Shown here one piece after another: positions 6,290 through 40,060 of a stretch of 64,000 nucleotides of DNA. Below the pieces are notes generated by a model. The model had not been told where the DNA came from, did no database searches, and worked only from the letters and a program-made list of their open reading frames with translations. Origin of the DNA: Pontibacter litorisediminis (lineage in GTDB: Bacteria > Bacteroidota > Bacteroidia > Cytophagales > Hymenobacteraceae). A program made the translations under genes and the position numbers. Positions within the stretch are counted from its first letter, which is position 1, and the number at the start of each line of letters is the position of its first letter. The stretch lies in NCBI RefSeq assembly GCF_029360645.1, contig NZ_JARDUA010000001.1:248001-312000 (forward strand), read 5' to 3'.

Positions 6290-6839
6290 CTCCCCCCGCC
6301 GCAAAGAGCTGCTCACCAGCCTTGGCCTGAAGTATGAGGTGCTGGTAAAGGAGGTGCAGGAGGATTTTCCAGCCCATTTAAAGCGGGAGGAGATCGCGGA
6401 ATACCTGGCCTCGCACAAAGCAGCCGCTTATACTTCCGACATCACGGATGAAGCGCTGATTACGGCTGATACCATTGTTTGCCTGGGCGATCGCGTGCTG
6501 AACAAGCCTGCTGACTATGCGGAGGCAAAAGAGATGCTGGAGGCGCTTTCGGGCACACACAACGAGGTGATTACGGGTGTCTGCATTCTTACGCGGGAGC
6601 AGAAAGCGGTTTTCCACGATACCACCAAAGTATACTTCAAGCAGCTCTCGGAGGCGGAGATCGATCATTACATCACGCATTACAAACCCTATGACAAGGC
6701 AGGTGCCTACGGCATCCAGGAGTGGATCGGTATGATCGGCATTGAGCGCATTGAGGGTTCTTATTTTAACGTGGTGGGGCTGCCGGTGCAGAAGCTGTAT
6801 GCCAAGCTGGAGGAGCTGGGGATAGTGGCAGCAGGCTGA
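6255..6839 (+). CDS. maf: Maf-family nucleotide pyrophosphatase
   Basis: 194 residues from the ATG at 6255 (MNLQRPLLLASNSPRRKELL). Maf proteins hydrolyse non-canonical or selected nucleoside triphosphates to monophosphates plus pyrophosphate. Visible motifs are ASNSPRR near the N-terminus, ITADTIV in the middle, and KPYDKAGAYGIQ followed by IEGSYFNVVGLP at the C-terminus, which fit the YhdE-type dTTP/UTP group. An in-frame ATG exists 30 bases earlier, but the family N-terminus argues for 6255. The start lies inside the 3' end of the DUF1015 gene. A palindromic AAGTATACTT occurs within the gene at 6628. Confidence 0.93.
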   Translation: MNLQRPLLLASNSPRRKELLTSLGLKYEVLVKEVQEDFPAHLKREEIAEYLASHKAAAYTSDITDEALITADTIVCLGDRVLNKPADYAEAKEMLEALSGTHNEVITGVCILTREQKAVFHDTTKVYFKQLSEAEIDHYITHYKPYDKAGAYGIQEWIGMIGIERIEGSYFNVVGLPVQKLYAKLEELGIVAAG

Positions 6840-11279: not shown

Positions 11280-11786
11280 ATGCCGATAAGCCTAAACTAT
11301 AAGTTCCTGATCGTGATTTCCAGCATACTTGCCCTATGTTCGCTGACCCTGAATATGGCATTGTTTCACCTGTTGTGGCTGCCGCACGAGCAATTGCCGC
11401 TCTGGGGGCAGCAAAGTATGGCCACGCACCTGTTTGCCTATAGCACGGTGGCTGGGTTCGTACTAGGGTGGGCAGCTACCAGGGCAACACGCTGGGCCCT
11501 GCGAAACCGAAGGGTGTTGCCGCTGCACTGGCACCTCAAGAGTCAGACGCTTATCGACAGACTGCCCTCCAGAACGTTTAACAGGGCCTTTATGTTTGCT
11601 CTGGCCGGGTTCTCCATCGCCAGCATCCTGGTCCTCCTCCTAAGCCTGCTGCAGCTGAACTACGTGCCCTTCTTTGAGTTTCAGCAGCTCTCCATCATTT
11701 ACAGTGTCTGCCTGGCTGGGGCAATAACGTGCATGGCCGTTTACCGGGCCCTCGGCGACCGGATCATGAGCCACTCCAAAGTATAA
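11280..11786 (+). CDS. Small four-helix membrane protein of unknown function
   Basis: 168 residues, start ATG at 11280. I do not recognise a family. Hydrophobic segments lie at about residues 10-32, 45-65, 103-125 and 138-156, giving a probable four-helix inner-membrane protein. A basic, arginine-rich stretch (residues 68-100, including RATRWALRNRR) would sit between helices 2 and 3. There is no signal peptidase site and no catalytic motif. The gene is isolated: divergent from the acyltransferase gene and convergent with gpsA. Its last five codons and stop form one arm of a perfect 23-bp terminator hairpin. Confidence 0.7.
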   Translation: MPISLNYKFLIVISSILALCSLTLNMALFHLLWLPHEQLPLWGQQSMATHLFAYSTVAGFVLGWAATRATRWALRNRRVLPLHWHLKSQTLIDRLPSRTFNRAFMFALAGFSIASILVLLLSLLQLNYVPFFEFQQLSIIYSVCLAGAITCMAVYRALGDRIMSHSKV

Positions 11787-11829
11787 AAGGCACACCGTTA
11801 CCAGGAGTGCCTTTTATACTTTGGAGTGG
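11771..11829. terminator. Perfect 23-bp hairpin carrying TATACTT in both arms
   Basis: Left arm 11771-11793 and right arm 11807-11829 are exact reverse complements, separated by 13 bases. Each arm contains one copy of the AAGTATA heptamer (11779-11785 and 11815-11821). The left arm overlaps the 3' end of the upstream gene, including its stop codon, and the right arm ends 3 bases before the gpsA stop. It separates two convergent genes and should terminate both. Confidence 0.92.
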
Positions 11830-11832
11830 CTG

Positions 11833-12822
11833 CTATTTAAACTTTTCCTTCAGGATCTCAAATTCCACAGTTGGGGAGATGCGCTCGTAGAGGATGTGGT
11901 ACACGGCCTTAGTAATAGGCATGTCTACTTGCAATTTTTTGTTGAGCTCATGGATGCTCTGTACGGCATAATATCCTTCGGCCACCATGTTCATCTCCAC
12001 CTGCGCAGACTTCACCGTATAGCCTCGGCCGATCATGTTCCCGAATGTGCGGTTGCGGCTGAACTGCGAATAAGCCGTCACCAGCAAATCCCCTAGGTAG
12101 GCAGAGCCGCTCAGGGCACGGTGCATGGGCATGATGGCATCCAGGAAGCGCTCGATCTCAAACATAGCATTAGATACCAGCACCGCCTGAAAGTTGTCGC
12201 CGTAGTTCTGGCCACGTGCTATGCCACAGGCCAGGGCAATGATATTTTTCATGACGGCGCAGTACTCAATGCCATCCAAGTCGTCCAATGGGTTGGCCTT
12301 GACGTAGCGGTTCCGAAGCATTTCGCAGAAGCGCTCGGCAGTGGTCAGGTTATGTGAGCCAATGGTCAGGTAAGACTGCTTCTCCAGGGCCACCTCTTCG
12401 GCATGGCATGGGCCTGCGATCACCAGCAGGTGTTCTTCCGGCACATCATACTTCTGTCGCACAAAGTCCGTGATCAGCACATTCTCCTTCGGGATCATTC
12501 CCTTGATGGCCGAGATTACCACTTTACCCTGGAAAGCGTTGCGCGGTAAATCGGCAAGTGCCAGCTGCACGAATGCGGCTGGCACTGCCAGTATCACCCA
12601 ATCCGAAGAAGCCACAACGGCTCGTATGTCTGTGGATGGTTTAACGTAGGTCAGGTCAAACGACACCTGGCTGAGGTAGCGCGGGTTGTGTTTGAAATTA
12701 ATAAGGTGCTGCACATCGTTTTCGTTGCGCATCCACCAGTTTACTTCTGATTTGTTCTCTGAGAGGATTTTCACCAGGGCCGTTGCCCAGCTTCCGCCTC
12801 CCAGTACTGCTACTTTTTCCAA
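11833..12822 (-). CDS. gpsA: NAD(P)H-dependent glycerol-3-phosphate dehydrogenase
   Basis: 329 residues. It reduces dihydroxyacetone phosphate to sn-glycerol 3-phosphate, the backbone for phospholipid synthesis. The dinucleotide-binding motif is VLGGGSWATAL (residues 6-16). Later motifs include AIKG near residue 110, the AGPCHAEEVA segment (family GPS-(F/H)-A-x-E-V), and the NIIALACGIARG block with the catalytic lysine in VMKNIIAL. The start codon is TTG at 12820-12822; no ATG gives the family N-terminus. It begins only 5 bases after the stop of the adaptor gene, so it is the last gene of a tolC-adaptor-gpsA transcript, an unexpected pairing. Confidence 0.93.
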   Translation of the reverse strand: MEKVAVLGGGSWATALVKILSENKSEVNWWMRNENDVQHLINFKHNPRYLSQVSFDLTYVKPSTDIRAVVASSDWVILAVPAAFVQLALADLPRNAFQGKVVISAIKGMIPKENVLITDFVRQKYDVPEEHLLVIAGPCHAEEVALEKQSYLTIGSHNLTTAERFCEMLRNRYVKANPLDDLDGIEYCAVMKNIIALACGIARGQNYGDNFQAVLVSNAMFEIERFLDAIMPMHRALSGSAYLGDLLVTAYSQFSRNRTFGNMIGRGYTVKSAQVEMNMVAEGYYAVQSIHELNKKLQVDMPITKAVYHILYERISPTVEFEILKEKFK

Positions 12823-26847: not shown

Positions 26848-29800
26848 TTATTCTTCTCCGGTTAAAAACTGTAAGTTGATGATGCTCTGGTTATAATACA
26901 GCAGGGCGTTGAGGTACTGCAGGCGCAGGTTGTATGCTTGGTCCAGGGCCTGCACAAACTCCACGTAGTCCACTTCGCCCAGCCTAAAGCTAAGACCTGC
27001 CGCCTTCTCTAACTGCTCCGCCTGCTGCAGCGCTCCCTGCTCGTAGTACTGTAGCTGCTCTGCCTGCTTCTGCAGTTCCTGCAAAGCGTTCTGAAGGTCG
27101 GCCTCAAGCATCTTTTCGCGCGCCTCTGCCTGCTTTTGTACTGCCTGCTCGTTCAGCCGTGCCGCGTTGATCCTGGATTTCTGAGCTCCGAACCAGAGCG
27201 GCACAGCAATGCCGGCCTCCACTCCCGTAAAACGGTCGGAGTTGCCATAAACCCGTGACGGATCCCGCGCCGGGCTCTCGCCGATGAAGGTCTGGTTAAA
27301 GTAGCCGATGCTAAAGTTAGGCAGCAGGCGCGCGCTCTCTAACTTAGTTTGCTGCCTGGCCACCTGCACCTCATTCTGCAGTAGCTGCAGCCATACTTGT
27401 GCGGTGGTCGTGTCGGTAAGTACAGCAGAAGTATACTTTTGCGGCGCGGACGCGGTGAAGCGCACCGCCCCCGCAGGGGCATGCAACAGCTGGCGCAGGC
27501 GCGTCTCGGCAATCGCAGCATCAGCGTTGGCTTGAGCCAACTCGGCTTTGATGCTTAAGCGTTTTGCCTCGGCGGTGGCGCGCTCCAGCGCACCTGTCTC
27601 ACCTGCTTTCTCCCGCACACGGGCAGCATGCTCAAACCTGGCGTAGAGCGAGTCTTGCAAAAGTATGAATTGCTTCCTGGCCTGCAGGTGCTGCCACTGC
27701 TCAAAGGCCAGTTTTACATCGCGCAGCACCTGGCGCTCGGTCAGTCGCTGCCTGATTTCCGCCTGCGTGGCCTGCGCATCCGCCAATCGTGCCTGCCGGC
27801 CATACACAGTTGGAAAGGCAAACTCTTGGGTAACAGTGATCTCTTCATCTGTCTCAACGGTGCTAATTTGCCCGCGCCTGTAGTTCAGGTTTGTTTTGGG
27901 CAGGTCAAAAGCAGCCCCTTTCAACGCTCTCTGGCTTTCGGTTTCCAGCTGGGCTGCCTGGAGGGTGGGATTGTTTTCGCGGGCGTACTGCAGGGCTCCC
28001 TGCAGGTCCAGGGGCTGAGGGCCTTCCTGTGCCTGCGCCGCAATACTGCTGCCAAAGTATAAACCTATGCTTAACAGCAGCGCCACAACAGAATGCACCG
28101 CCACAGGCTTGCTTTTCCGTTCCTCCCTCGACGTCACCAGGTAATACAGCACGGGTAGCACGACCAGTGTCAGCAGTGTGGAGGTGATCAAACCGCCAAT
28201 AACCACAGTTGCCAGCGGTTTCTGCACCTCCGCTCCCGCTGAGCTGGAAAGCGCCATAGGCAGGAAGCCTAGTGCGGCCACAGAGGCCGTCATCAGCACG
28301 GGGCGCAGGCGAACCGTAGTGCCTTCTATCACCCGCTCATACACATCATGCCAGCCATCCTTTTTGAGCTGATTAAAATAGCCGATGAGAACGATACCGT
28401 TCAAGACGGCCACGCCGAACAAAGCAATAAAGCCCACACCGGCCGATATGCTGAAGGGCATGTCGCGCAGCCACAGGGCAAAAATGCCCCCAATGGCCGC
28501 CAGCGGGATTGCCGTAAAGATGAGCAGGCCCTGCTTCAGGGAGCGGAAAGTAAAGTACAGGAGCACCAGGATGAGCAGCAGGGCGGCCGGTACGGCCACC
28601 TGCAGGCGCTGCTTGGCATTAATCAGATTCTCGAACTGGCCTCCGTAGGTGATATAGTAGCCCGGCGGCAGCTTTAGCTCCTGCTCCAGCTTCTGCTTCA
28701 CTTCCTCCACGATCGACTCTACGTCGCGGTCGCGCACATTAAAGCCTACCACTATGCGGCGGCGTCCCTCCTCGCGGGAAATCTGCATCGGTCCGTCCTC
28801 AAACCGGATGTCAGCTACCTGTTGTAAAGGCACTTGGCCACCGCTCGGTAGCGGGACAAACAAGTCTTCTATGTCATTCAGGTTGCTACGGTAGTCCTGC
28901 TGCAGGCGCACCACCAGGTCGAAGCGGCGGTCGCCTTCGTATACAGCTCCGGCTGTCTCTCCGGCAAAGGCTGTGCGCAACACGCGGTTCACGTCCTGCA
29001 CGTGCAGGCCATACTGCGCCAGCTGTGCCCGCTTGTACTCCACCACGATCTGCGGCAGGCCTGTTACCTCCTCCACAAACAAGTCCTGTGCCCCGCGCAC
29101 CGGTCGTATAAGGCGTTCCGCCTCGCCAGCCAGCTCGCTTAGTTCGTTCAGGTCCTCTCCATAGATCTTCACGGCCACGTCCTGGCGGGCACCAGTAATG
29201 AGTTCGTTGAAGCGCAGCTGAATTGGTTGCTGAAAGCCATAGTTCACCCCTGGCAGCACCTGCAGCGCCGAATCCATTTTGGCGGCCAGCTCTTCGCGGG
29301 TGCTGGCGCTGGTCCACTCTTCGCGGTCCTTCAGCAGGATCATCACGTCGGCAGCCTCTATCGGCATCGGGTCTGTAGGGATTTCGGCGGTGCCGATCTT
29401 GCCTATCACCTCTTTTACCTCGGGGAAGTTCTTCTGCAGAATCTCACTGGCTTTAAGCGTAGTTTGAATCGTTTGTTCAAGTGATGCTCCAGGTACCAAT
29501 CGCAGGTCCATGGCAAAGTCACCTTCATCCAGCTGAGGTATAAATTCGCCTCCCATTCTGCTGAAGACCACCAGGCTGATCGCCAGCAAGCCCACAGCCA
29601 GACCTAGTATAAGCGCCTTGCTGCGCAGCGCAAAACGGATGACAGGCTGGTACAGGTGCATGAGCTTATCCATTATCCGGTCGGAGATGTTGCGCTTGTG
29701 CTTTGTTTTCTTGCTCAGCAACAGCGTGGAGACCATAGGCACGTAGGTGAGTGAGAGAATCAGCGCCCCGAGTATGGCAAAACTCACTGTCTGCGCCATC

Positions 29801-35384: not shown

Positions 35385-37826
35385 TTGAGATCACGATTAT
35401 ACATAGCCGCCCTGAGTTTTGCAATGTTGGGCCTGCCTGCCTGCATTCCGACAAAGAACCTGGGTGAGAACGAGAAGCTGCTTGTAAGTATGGAGCCAAA
35501 GGGGCTGGAAACTGTGGATGCAGCTGCCATTCAGGGTCTTTACCAGCAGCAGCCCAACCGTATGGTGCTCGGCTCCACCCCTTACCTGGTGCTTTACAAC
35601 TTCGGCAAAAAGTTTTACGATCCGCAAAATATTCGGGCCCGCATAGCCAAGCAGGAGAACCGGATGGCGGTGAAAATAGAGGAAGCGGGCACGGACTCTG
35701 TGAAGATCAACAAACTGCGCGAGAAGTATAACAACCGCGTGGAGCGCCTGGAGAAAAAACTGCAGGAAGGCAATTTCTTGATGCAGTTGGGGGAGCCGCC
35801 AGCCATTTTCGACTCCCTGCGCATGCAGGAGACGATGGACCAGATCGGCATTTACCTGAACTCCAAAGGCTATTTTAACTACCGCGCCAACTACTCCTCG
35901 GAGGTCAGGAAGGAGAAGCTGCTCTACATTGATATCAATATCGACGAGAACAAGCCATACCGCTACTCCGAGCTGAGCTATGACATCAAAGACCCGCGAA
36001 TTCTGGAAATCGTGCAGCGCACCCAGGACCGCTCGCTGCTAAGGCTGGGAGAGCGTTATGATGAGGAGCAGCTGACGCAGGAGCGCGACCGCCTGTATGA
36101 TGTGCTCAAAAACCGCGGCTACTATGACTTTGCGCGTGCCTACATAGAATTTGAGGTGGATACGAGCTGGGCGCAGAACTCTGCACGCGTGAAAACGGTA
36201 ATCGAGAGCCCGGAACAGGATTCCACGCATAAGGTGTATACTATAAAGGATGTGTACTTCAAGTCTGATGCGGATCGCTTCGGTATCCCCAGGGATACGA
36301 TGGGGTACAATGGTGTGAAGTATGTGGCCTACGACCACAAGTATAACCCCGTCATCCTGGATAAAAAGCTGGATATTTACCCGGGCCAGCGGTACAGCCA
36401 ATTCCGCACGCTCACCACACAGCGCAAACTCGCGGACCTGGACGCCTTCCAGTTCAACAACGTGTTCTATAACAAGGTGGAGACTCCTACCGACTCCACC
36501 TATGAGTTGATTGCCTTGGTGAATGCCCTGCCGGCCAAGAAATTTCAGGAAACAGCTGAGCTGGGAATGAACTTCACCGAGAAAAGGCCGGGCCCTTTCT
36601 CCAGCCTCACACTCCGTGTGCGAAATGTGTTTGGCGGCGCAGAGAACCTCGATTTTGGGGTTCGGGGCGGCATTGAGTACCAGGCGAGCATCTCTGATCC
36701 GGATCAGGCGGTCATGATCAAGGAATTTGGCCTTAATGCCTCGCTTTCCTTCCCGGTCATACTGTTGCCCTTCACTAAAAAGAACCTGCTCTCTGACTTC
36801 AGCCCACGTACCCGTTTCTACACCGGCTACAACAGCGAAAACCGGCAGGAGTATGTGCGCTCTACCTACGAACTGGGCCTGGACTACATTTGGCAGCGCG
36901 CCCGTAACCCGCTGCAGCCACCCGTGTTGCAGTTTATACTTTCGCCGGTGAACTTTAACATCGTGCAGGGCGATATCAAGGACCTGGAGTTCAGGAGCAG
37001 GCTGGAAAACAACACCTCCGGCAGCCGCTCTTTGCTGGGAAGCTTTGACGACGGCATCATTTCTTTTGTCGGGTTGAGCCTCATCTACAACACCAACGAT
37101 TTTACGCAGACCCGCAACGCCCACTTTTTCCGGACATTGACAGAGGTAGGTGGCCTGACGAAAGAGCTGGGGCTAGACCTGAACGTGAACAACCTGCGCA
37201 CGTACCAGTACGCCCGCATAAACCCGGACTACCGCCGCTACATTCCTTTGGGCGGCCAGCGCTACTTTGTGTACCGTGTGAACGCGGGAGTGGCCTCTCC
37301 TATCCTGAGTGGCAACACACTACCCTACGATAAATTCTTTTTTGCCGGTGGCGCCTCCAGCGTGCGGGCGTGGCAGTCACGCCGCCTCGGCCTGGGTTCT
37401 TATGCAGCTTTAAGGGTGACGGAGGATGAAGAGGGTAACGTCAAGATTGAGCGTGATTACAACATGGAGCAGCCCGGCGAGGTCTTGCTGGAGGCTAACG
37501 TAGAGTACCGCTTTAACATGTTCAGCTTTATCAACGGAGCTTTCTTTGTGGATGCAGGCAACGTGTGGCTGCTGGAGCCGAACGCCGCCCGGCCGGGGGC
37601 TGATTTCCAGTTCAACCGCTTTTACAAGGAAGTGGCTGTAGGTACCGGCTTCGGCCTGCGTTTCGACCTGTCGGTGCTTATTCTGCGCTTTGACTTCGCC
37701 ACAAAAGTGTATGACCCAGCTAAGTGGAAGGAAGACCGCTTTGTGCTGCCAAGGTTCAACGTGACGGATTTCTTCACCCGTAACAACCAAAGCACCCTGC
37801 AAATCGGTATCGGTTACCCCTTCTAG
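35385..37826 (+). CDS. tamL: TamL-type BamA/TamA-family outer-membrane lipoprotein
   Basis: 813 residues. The start is TTG at 35385; the only early ATG would cut the signal peptide. The N-terminus MRSRLYIAALSFAMLGLPAC ends in a lipobox-like cysteine, fitting the Bacteroidota TamL, the lipidated version of TamA. POTRA-like domains occupy about residues 25-430 (NSKGYFNYRANYSSEV, LKNRGYYDFARAYIEFEV). A 16-stranded barrel follows, with the Omp85 motif region FFAGGASSVRAWQSRRLG and the final strand LQIGIGYPF with a C-terminal Phe. It is thought to help insert outer-membrane proteins together with the inner-membrane protein TamB, which is not encoded in the window. Confidence 0.9.
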   Translation: MRSRLYIAALSFAMLGLPACIPTKNLGENEKLLVSMEPKGLETVDAAAIQGLYQQQPNRMVLGSTPYLVLYNFGKKFYDPQNIRARIAKQENRMAVKIEEAGTDSVKINKLREKYNNRVERLEKKLQEGNFLMQLGEPPAIFDSLRMQETMDQIGIYLNSKGYFNYRANYSSEVRKEKLLYIDINIDENKPYRYSELSYDIKDPRILEIVQRTQDRSLLRLGERYDEEQLTQERDRLYDVLKNRGYYDFARAYIEFEVDTSWAQNSARVKTVIESPEQDSTHKVYTIKDVYFKSDADRFGIPRDTMGYNGVKYVAYDHKYNPVILDKKLDIYPGQRYSQFRTLTTQRKLADLDAFQFNNVFYNKVETPTDSTYELIALVNALPAKKFQETAELGMNFTEKRPGPFSSLTLRVRNVFGGAENLDFGVRGGIEYQASISDPDQAVMIKEFGLNASLSFPVILLPFTKKNLLSDFSPRTRFYTGYNSENRQEYVRSTYELGLDYIWQRARNPLQPPVLQFILSPVNFNIVQGDIKDLEFRSRLENNTSGSRSLLGSFDDGIISFVGLSLIYNTNDFTQTRNAHFFRTLTEVGGLTKELGLDLNVNNLRTYQYARINPDYRRYIPLGGQRYFVYRVNAGVASPILSGNTLPYDKFFFAGGASSVRAWQSRRLGLGSYAALRVTEDEEGNVKIERDYNMEQPGEVLLEANVEYRFNMFSFINGAFFVDAGNVWLLEPNAARPGADFQFNRFYKEVAVGTGFGLRFDLSVLILRFDFATKVYDPAKWKEDRFVLPRFNVTDFFTRNNQSTLQIGIGYPF

Positions 37827-37912: not shown

Positions 37913-37968
37913 CAAGTATAAAGCAAGACGCCCTGCCAGTAGTGGCAGGGCGTCTTGCTTTATACTTG
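37913..37968. terminator. Perfect 25-bp hairpin carrying AAGTATA/TATACTT in its arms
   Basis: Left arm 37913-37937 and right arm 37944-37968 are exact reverse complements around the 6-base loop AGTAGT. The outermost part of each arm is the heptamer (37914-37920 and 37961-37967). It separates convergent tamL and the E1 gene and should act in both directions. Confidence 0.93.
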
Positions 37969-37981
37969 GTTGATTTATTTA

Positions 37982-40060
37982 TTAGTAATTGAGCAGCTCT
38001 TCCATTTTAGCAGCTACCTTCTCAGGGTTTGGCAGCATCATCTTCTCCAGCTCCACATTCAGCGGAATGGCAGGCAGGTTGGCGGCACCTAAAGTATAAA
38101 CCGGGGCATCCAGCTTCTGGAAACAATCTTTAGACAATCGCCCGGCCAAGGATTCCGCGAAGGAGTTCATCAGCGGCTCCTCCGTCAGCACCAGAGCTTT
38201 GCCGTGGCGCTCCACAGAGGCTTTAACAGTGTCATAATCCAGCGGGTTAAGCGTGCGCAGGTCCACGATCTCTATACTTCCAGGAAACTGCTTAGAGGCG
38301 GTCTTGGCCCAGTATACCCCCATGCCGTAGGTGATCACTGTCATGCTGTTGCCCATGCGCACCTGTTCCTCGTCTGCTTTTTGAACAATGTTAGCCTTGC
38401 CCAGCGGTAGAATATAGTTTTCATCCGGCTCCACGGTCTTGGCATCCTCGGTGCCGGCCACTTTTGACCAATACAGGCCCTTGTGCTCCAGCATCACCAC
38501 CGGGTTGGGGTCCAGGAACGCTGCCTTCATCAGGCCTTTCATATCAGCGGCATTGCTCGGGAACACCACTTTGATGCCGCGTATGTTCAGCAGCGTGGAC
38601 TCTATACTTCCGGAGTGGTACGGTCCGCCGCCGCCGTAAGCGCCAATCGGCACCCGAATAACAGATTGAACGGGGAATTTGCCATTGCTCAGGTAGCAGC
38701 TCTTCGACAGTTCCTCCACCAGTTGATTGATGCCGGGCCAGATATAGTCGGCGAACTGAATCTCCACGATTGCTTTCGCCCCAACAGCCGACATGCCTGC
38801 TGTTGAGCCAACTATGTACGCCTCCTGGATTGGTGTATTGAACACGCGGGCGTCGCCATATTTCTTAGCCAACAATGCGGCCTCACGGAACACGCCCCCC
38901 AGCTCTCCCCCTACATCCTGTCCGTAGAACAGGGCCTCGGGGTAGGTTTTCAGGATATCATCCACCGCATGCAGGGCCGCATCCACCATGATCGCCTTGT
39001 CTGCGCCTGCCGGGCTTCGCTCGCCTTTTTCCTCGGTTACAGGTGTGGGGGCAAATTCATGCGTGTCAAAGGTGCTTGGGTCGGGGTTGGGGGCATTCAG
39101 GGCCCGCTCGTAATCGGCGGCAACGGTGCTAATGGCCTCCTGCTCCAGCAGCTTCACCTCGTCTACTTCCAGGCCTGCGTTCAAAAGTAACTCACGTAGT
39201 TTCGGAATCGGGTCGTCCACGCTGTGCTGCTGCAGGTTATCGCCCCTATACCACTCCCGGCGCACCCCGGAAGTATGGTGGCCCAACAGCGGCACCTTGG
39301 CGTGCACCAGTATCGGGCGGCGCACTTTACGGGCATACTCTATCGCCACGCGCATCCCCTCGTAGGATTCCTCAAAATCAGAGCCGTTAACGCGCAGGCG
39401 CTCCATGCCTTTGAAGCCGGCAGCATACTCAAAAGCATCCATGGCGCGCATTTCCTTGCCCGTGGCTGAGATCCCCCAGTCGTTGTCCTGCACCAGGTAA
39501 ATGATCGGCAGCCCTTTGAGCACCGCCATCTGGAAAGCCTCGGCCACCTCGCCCTCGGTTACAGAGCCGTCTCCCAGCGAGCACAGCACTATGGGCTTTT
39601 CCTCGCCCTTCAGCAGCCCCTGCCCTTCCAGGTACGCCACGCCGTGTGCCATACCGGTGGCCGGAATGGCCTGCATGCCGGTGGCCGAGCTTTGGTGCGG
39701 AATCGTCGGGAAGCCATCCCGCCTCAGCGACGGGTGCCCGTAATAGGTGCGGCCCCCGGAGAAGGGGTCATCGGCCTTGGCCATGAGCTGCAGCATGAGC
39801 TCGTAAGGCTGCAGGCCCATGCCCAACAACATAGAGTCGTCGCGGTAATAGAGCGAGGCGTAATCGAAGGGCTTTAGCTGCAGGGCGGCTGCCAGTTGTA
39901 TGGCTTCGTGGCCGCGTGAGGTGCTGTGCACATACTTACTGCAAATCGCCTTGTTATCTTCGTAGGTATCTGCCATGGTCTTGGCAGTAATCATCAGTCG
40001 GTAAGCCTTTTTCAGTAATTCCAGATCGAGTTTAGTGGCTTCCAGGGTTTCTCGTGACAT
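37982..40060 (-). CDS. 2-oxoacid dehydrogenase E1 component, alpha and beta subunits fused
   Basis: 692 residues, start ATG at 40058-40060. Thiamine diphosphate-dependent decarboxylase of a 2-oxoacid dehydrogenase complex. Residues 1 to about 330 are the alpha part with the TPP motif GDGSVTEGEVAEAF (GDGS at 163-166, closing Asn193). After a linker near EKGERSPAGADK, residues of about 360-692 are the beta part, with FYGQDVGGELGGVFREA, FNTPIQEAYIVG and FPSNAADMKGL. The order and length fit the fused branched-chain-type E1 (bkdAB-like) of Bacteroidota; pyruvate or acetoin as substrate cannot be excluded. No E2 or E3 gene is adjacent. Three AAGTATA-type copies are inside. Confidence 0.9.
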   Translation of the reverse strand: MSRETLEATKLDLELLKKAYRLMITAKTMADTYEDNKAICSKYVHSTSRGHEAIQLAAALQLKPFDYASLYYRDDSMLLGMGLQPYELMLQLMAKADDPFSGGRTYYGHPSLRRDGFPTIPHQSSATGMQAIPATGMAHGVAYLEGQGLLKGEEKPIVLCSLGDGSVTEGEVAEAFQMAVLKGLPIIYLVQDNDWGISATGKEMRAMDAFEYAAGFKGMERLRVNGSDFEESYEGMRVAIEYARKVRRPILVHAKVPLLGHHTSGVRREWYRGDNLQQHSVDDPIPKLRELLLNAGLEVDEVKLLEQEAISTVAADYERALNAPNPDPSTFDTHEFAPTPVTEEKGERSPAGADKAIMVDAALHAVDDILKTYPEALFYGQDVGGELGGVFREAALLAKKYGDARVFNTPIQEAYIVGSTAGMSAVGAKAIVEIQFADYIWPGINQLVEELSKSCYLSNGKFPVQSVIRVPIGAYGGGGPYHSGSIESTLLNIRGIKVVFPSNAADMKGLMKAAFLDPNPVVMLEHKGLYWSKVAGTEDAKTVEPDENYILPLGKANIVQKADEEQVRMGNSMTVITYGMGVYWAKTASKQFPGSIEIVDLRTLNPLDYDTVKASVERHGKALVLTEEPLMNSFAESLAGRLSKDCFQKLDAPVYTLGAANLPAIPLNVELEKMMLPNPEKVAAKMEELLNY

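Follow-up and report, generated by a model that had tools for sequence, protein, structure and literature searches.

The window is the whole 64,000-nucleotide stretch of Pontibacter litorisediminis DNA that we analysed. Within it, a short open reading frame and gpsA converge on a long hairpin. Their features, together with a second hairpin of the same kind, are as follows.

11280..11786, + strand: upstream ORF of 168 aa, with no Pfam match; it adjoins gpsA in many Pontibacter genomes.
11769..11793, + strand: left arm of a perfect 25-bp stem, overlapping the final codons of the upstream ORF.
11779..11785, + strand: heptamer AAGTATA, the ancestral copy; relatives have this arm sequence, in places slightly varied, on the same side.
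11784..11786, + strand: TAA stop of the upstream ORF, made of the heptamer's final two bases and the next A.
11788..11812, + strand: conserved core of the putative terminator, AGGCACACC ... GGAGTGCCT (in relatives GGCACACC ... GGTGTGCC), with compensatory changes across 14 genomes.
11794..11806, + strand: apical region of 13 nt, in which 2 extra C-G pairs close a 7-nt loop.
11807..11831, + strand: right arm, ending 1 nt short of the gpsA stop codon.
11810..11824, + strand: U-rich tract CCTTTTATACTTTGG of the + transcript, delimited by eye and by folding; in the window species it is paired within the stem.
11815..11821, - strand: heptamer AAGTATA, the derived inverted copy on the gpsA side, which clade-mates do not have.
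11833..12822, - strand: gpsA, NAD-dependent glycerol-3-phosphate dehydrogenase, with its TAG stop at 11833-11835.
37913..37968, + strand: 26-bp perfect stem with an inverted AAGTATA pair, the second such hairpin in the window.

An inverted-repeat search at the gpsA gap returned arms of 28 nt with 96% complementarity, the uninterrupted part being 25 bp, and each arm holds one AAGTATA. The initial annotation had described a perfect hairpin with this heptamer in both arms; it fell 2 bp short with a stem of 23 bp, and was right to place the hairpin between convergent genes, here ORF 11280-11786 (+) and gpsA (-). Its claim that the left arm occupies the last codons of the upstream gene agrees with the sequence of that ORF, which ends in AGC CAC TCC AAA GTA TAA: the stop codon is built from the heptamer and therefore lies inside the left arm.

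The folding energy is -48.0 kcal/mol on the + strand and -47.6 kcal/mol on the - strand, against shuffle means of about -17 (z of about -9.8 on either strand, equalled by none of 200 shuffles). The hairpin at 11769-11831 is not a product of chance. Rfam matches to microRNA precursors lie far below the gathering scores, and this identity was rejected as an artefact of long hairpins. The second hairpin, at 37913-37968, also lies between convergent ORFs, 35385-37826 (+) for an Omp85-type protein and 37982-40060 (-) for a dehydrogenase E1/transketolase-type protein; the matching gap of the related genome G022 has a stem of 9 bp.

At gpsA, the stable GC-containing hairpin sits at both stop codons, 11784-11786 and 11833-11835. 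The same core, AAGGCACACC...GGTGTGCCTTTTTT, is found in the gap 3' of gpsA in 14 Pontibacter genomes, where its pairing holds in 97.6% of cells, with far lower values for slid versions. Compensatory (two-sided) changes affect 7 of its 12 pairs, as high a number being reached in none of 500 shuffles. Judged by this position and covariation, the two convergent genes very probably share the hairpin as a bidirectional intrinsic (Rho-independent) terminator.

It shares with known bidirectional intrinsic terminators the A-tract and GC stem between two stops, followed by a putative T-tract, as well as the compensatory changes. It differs from them by a stem that is unusually long and perfect (25 bp), enters coding sequence and holds the T tract paired inside. 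A consensus terminator scan made no call at 11769-11831, because the T run is taken up in the stem, and the complete 25-bp stem has no free T tract after it. In relatives, the core is followed by a T run and then ATACTT; in the window species it is followed by TTTTATACTTT, paired within the longer stem.

The initial annotation further held that the hairpin is built from the two heptamers, and here it has to be corrected. The conserved stem is the GC core GGCAC...GTGCC; the heptamers lie further out, in an AU-rich part, and the core GGCAC/GTGCC is present in relatives that have one heptamer or none.

We propose that RNA polymerase coming from either side would transcribe the GC core, upon which the hairpin would begin to fold. 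At the U-rich stretch after the core (UUUUAUACUUU, including the complement of the heptamer), the complex would then pause and be released; the perfect outer stem would zip afterwards and should also protect the 3' end. In genes generally, sense heptamers are most frequent at the stop codon, antisense ones about 45-60 nt downstream.

The palindrome might instead be a mobile repeat (REP- or MITE-like), a protein-binding site or a small RNA, for which one could cite its very strong fold and the weak Rfam matches. We find this very improbable: the stem sequence varies among sites, and both the placement between two stops and the covariation of the core suit a terminator.

The history of the terminator can be followed in related species. 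In a tree computed from about 2.4 kb of linked sequence (G026 not included), the window species (G000) belongs to a clade of nine genomes (support 100/99), where it sits beside G012 and G062. Seven of its eight clade-mates keep the hairpin, and in these the heptamer, exact or nearly so, is confined to the upstream-gene side. The match is exact (TATACTT) in G022, G012, G062, G020 and G013, and a one- or two-base variant in G021 (TATACCT) and G070 (TATAAGT). The remaining one, G034, has no such hairpin in the gap 3' of gpsA, and the gpsA-side copy occurs in none of the eight.

Among species with the core, both heptamer copies occur only in G000 and in G019, each with a perfect stem of about 25 bp. 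G019 lies outside the G000 clade and carries GCACCACTCCAAAGTATAAAAGCACA together with its exact complement; its sister G035 has TATACTT on one side only, the gpsA-side copy being absent. The outer arms of G000 and G019 differ (AGCCACTCCA versus GCACCACTCCA), and in either species the arm agrees with the one facing it. Another perfect stem with a heptamer pair, the third and of different build, is found in P. vulgaris (L018) and, with the same sequence, in G071 (locus L168).

For about 16 nt beyond the core (AGCCACTCCAAAGTAT), the derived arm is the exact reverse complement of the ancestral one, with the polarity given by the relatives. The simplest reading of these alignments would be that the gpsA side received an inverted copy of the upstream-gene arm, on at least two occasions in the genus. 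Going by the same comparison, the second heptamer at gpsA is not one acquired as an independent "uptake sequence".

Template switching appears to fit this copying best. A single heptamer copy would have made up the end of the upstream gene as well as the tail of the terminator; a template switch during replication, by which the imperfect palindrome was corrected, would then have put an inverted arm on the gpsA side, and with it the second heptamer and the perfect 25-bp stem. Template switching has been described as creating and maintaining perfect hairpins (PMC8794818). As in known template-switch (quasipalindrome) mutations (PMC8794818, PMC7202029), a stretch of sequence gives way to the exact reverse complement of the arm facing it; the difference is that here the process would have acted on a terminator in bacteria, apparently on two occasions at this one locus within a single genus. 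The perfect forms of G000 and G019 could in principle go back to one ancestral event with several losses, or to gene exchange, but the matched differences between their arms would still need concerted change. Altogether, we consider a bidirectional terminator with an arm copied by template switch to be the probable explanation of the whole locus. A bidirectional terminator is an element of known kind; what would be new is an inverted heptamer pair produced by arm copying, within a repeat family that resembles uptake sequences.

By its gpsA relatives, the genome belongs to Pontibacter. The window holds 81 copies of AAGTATA where 3.8 would be expected, and the whole genome 6,185, compared with 328 of the reversed word. 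Counts in the genus range from about 770 to about 11,800 per genome. The abundance is restricted to Pontibacter, the other families of the order being near their own control. In a 1.2 Mb sample, where gene calling simply took the longest ORF, called genes hold 0.97 copies per kb over all frames and both strands, divergent and tandem gaps 2.4-3.0 per kb and convergent gaps 4.2 per kb, with control words at about 0.03-0.26 per kb. The enrichment is about 15-fold in genes, in all frames, and higher between genes. A plasmid search gave no match.

Such an excess within and between genes could belong to a polar chromosome signal, be it Chi-like, KOPS-like or another architecture sequence, whose presence in terminators would be incidental. 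Chromosome signals of the Chi and KOPS type are strand-biased. On contig C1, most 50-kb bins hold about as many forward as reverse copies of AAGTATA, whichever side of the GC-skew switch they lie on, which makes a polar signal improbable; identity with Chi or KOPS was rejected because this bias is absent there.

The copies are also kept in place. When the window is compared with other AAGTATA species, 48-65% of the sites that can be aligned prove to be conserved, and 0-23% of control words; lost sites are mostly due to substitutions, in aligned blocks that are about 66-87% identical.

The word itself varies within the genus. The top word is AACTATA in P. burrus, P. fetidus, P. sp. Tf4 and P. 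populi. By whole-genome count, G060, G017, G066, G030 and G065 are rich in AACTATA, and both words are numerous in G032, G026 and G071. AACTATA reaches about 6,000-13,000 copies per genome in G060, G017, G066, G030, G065, G032 and G026 (loci L017, L024, L026, L027). The genomes G060, G017, G032, G065, G066 and G030 form one clade with support of 100/100, so that the dialect is clade-specific, as those of DUS and USS are. In the 4-kb loci of this clade, and in those of G069 and G003 (loci L145-L174), tblastn gave no hit to the ORF upstream of gpsA. Changes from AAGTATA to AACTATA in place at aligned sites are suggestive, in numbers that are small and not independent. GGTATAA occurs at about 5-9 times its reversed control in G036 (L016) and in AAGTATA-poor genomes such as G009, G016 and G028, and is possibly a third, weaker dialect.

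We then come to the arrangement of heptamers between genes. In a sample of 1.12 Mb that includes the window and excludes four 20-kb blocks chosen for known hairpins, we counted as hairpin-forming any pair of inverted heptamers with at least 7 further complementary bases. Seven of the eight such pairs lie in convergent gaps, which make up 2.6% of the sequence. For all inverted pairs within 60 bp, convergent gaps hold 10 where random placement matched by class gives 5.5 (P = 0.064), tandem gaps 12 against 8.1, divergent gaps 8 against 2.9 and genes 11 against 11.7. An enrichment between convergent genes therefore exists, almost wholly within hairpins: the excess that the initial annotation had anticipated is borne by hairpin-forming pairs, and pairs without extra complementarity stay near chance.

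The pairs change with the dialect. In counts that take in some pairs without a full stem, AAGTATAAAA...TTTTATACTT occurs 2-25 times per AAGTATA-rich genome and 0-1 times in the AACTATA-dominated G060, G065, G066, G030 and G017; AACTATAAAA...TTTTATAGTT occurs 5-11 times per AACTATA-rich genome (G032 and G026, with both kinds, among them) and 0-1 times elsewhere. Enriched between convergent genes and swapped with each genome's dialect, these pairs behave as DUS-type inverted pairs do.

Most long stems have no heptamer at all. Among 44 convergent stems of at least 14 bp, 6 hold a pair (stem and flank scanned), 9 a single heptamer and 29 none. Loci of Rufibacter, Hymenobacter and Adhaeribacter/Botryobacter contain 6.0-8.2 such stems per 100 kb, without a heptamer pair in any; the values for Rufibacter and Hymenobacter are 8.2 and 6.7, against 5.5 in AAGTATA Pontibacter loci. 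In four AACTATA loci we counted zero long stems, in too little sequence to judge. In G022, the corresponding gaps have stems in which both arms have changed yet still pair. Long perfect stems, mostly without a heptamer, thus appear to be a feature of the whole family, which the heptamer joins where it is common.

These counts lend themselves to a reading in which template switching keeps the long palindromes of the family perfect and words common at gene ends enter both arms, with no role in termination. The prevalence of heptamer-free stems, their density in Rufibacter and Hymenobacter and the way in which dialect terminators track dialect abundance all suit it, and we give it close to an even chance. 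Against it, the heptamer density of convergent gaps is 7.0 per kb in hairpins versus 3.4 outside (p = 0.0004), and the heptamer's complement falls at the expected position of the U-tract. Both may be effects of composition.

The original paper on inverted DUS and USS pairs in terminators is that of Ambur et al. from 2007. Such pairs of the Neisseria DUS and the Haemophilus USS are discussed in PMC2346458 and PMC3630211, and the terminator role of uptake sequences has been called contentious (PMC2346458). The architectural parallel with Neisseria that the initial annotation drew stands, since hairpin-forming pairs are concentrated between convergent genes and follow the dialect. As for DUS and USS, we see a short word with thousands of copies, clade dialects and terminator-associated inverted pairs that form stem-loops; the likeness to the DUS of Neisseriaceae (PMC3630211) covers abundance, symmetry, site conservation, dialects and terminator pairs. 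Unlike in these systems, the Pontibacter heptamers stand at the base of an independent GC stem, with a second copy that would be an arm copy, and the genus is one of Bacteroidota in which type IV pilus ATPases were undetected.

AAGTATA may accordingly be compared with a DNA uptake sequence whose inverted pair was recruited as a terminator, as for DUS and USS. The copy number is very high (about 6,000), in either orientation and without replication-strand bias across the GC-skew switch; the enrichment in all frames of genes, the conservation of sites and the clade-specific dialects with mixed genomes, as in Neisseriaceae (PMC3630211), point the same way. ComEC is present in 50 of 50 Pontibacter genomes. 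It cannot, for this reason, separate heptamer-rich from heptamer-poor genomes, and its presence does not track heptamer load. Two ComEC matches have an in-frame stop (G021:C1:2771217-2771876 and G009:C76:160505-161305) and are possibly broken competence genes.

Against recruitment of an uptake sequence stand the pair at gpsA, which would have arisen by arm copy, and the long perfect terminators that exist without the heptamer. In addition, PF00437 matched in all 50 genomes nothing longer than fragments of about 40-65 residues, at 19-26 bits, with no full-length PilB/PilT-type ATPase, a result that speaks against reading of the heptamer by type IV pilus machinery (ComP or equivalent) as in Neisseria; the machine of Neisseria and Haemophilus is therefore probably absent. 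Riemerella, another member of the Bacteroidota, has competence although it lacks pilus homologues (PMC8459023), and a preference for its own DNA has been reported for R. columbina (PMC7965970), so that a pilus-free reader of the heptamer would be possible in Pontibacter. Weighing both sides, we regard the recruited uptake sequence as a tentative reading, somewhat short of even.

A broader view can be drawn by analogy. AAGTATA and its dialects may be the uptake sequences of a pilus-independent competence system of Bacteroidota, which would have converged on the Neisseria pattern, including dialects and inverted-pair terminators, with template switching turning single copies at gene ends into pairs. 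We hold this with more reserve, as a conjecture that is rather doubtful. Among the open-access papers listed for these subjects we found no report of competence in Pontibacter, no uptake sequence and no earlier report of such a repeat family in Bacteroidota; those listed for AAGTATA were all unrelated. The heptamer family nevertheless offers a concrete candidate uptake word for a phylum that has competent members without pilus genes. On the question of how inverted uptake-like pairs enter terminators, which also arises for Neisseria and Haemophilus, the relatives of the window species present the states before and after, which point to the copying of one arm and not to two separate gains of the word.

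Two minor observations concern another arrangement of the heptamer and a further repeated word. Same-direction heptamer pairs within 60 bp number 45 in genes, against 23.4 at random, and 21 in convergent gaps, against 10.9 (1.12 Mb of G000). The palindrome AAGTATACTT has 122 copies in the whole genome, against 1 for the reversed word, and occurs in the window at 6628-6637 and 27429-27438.
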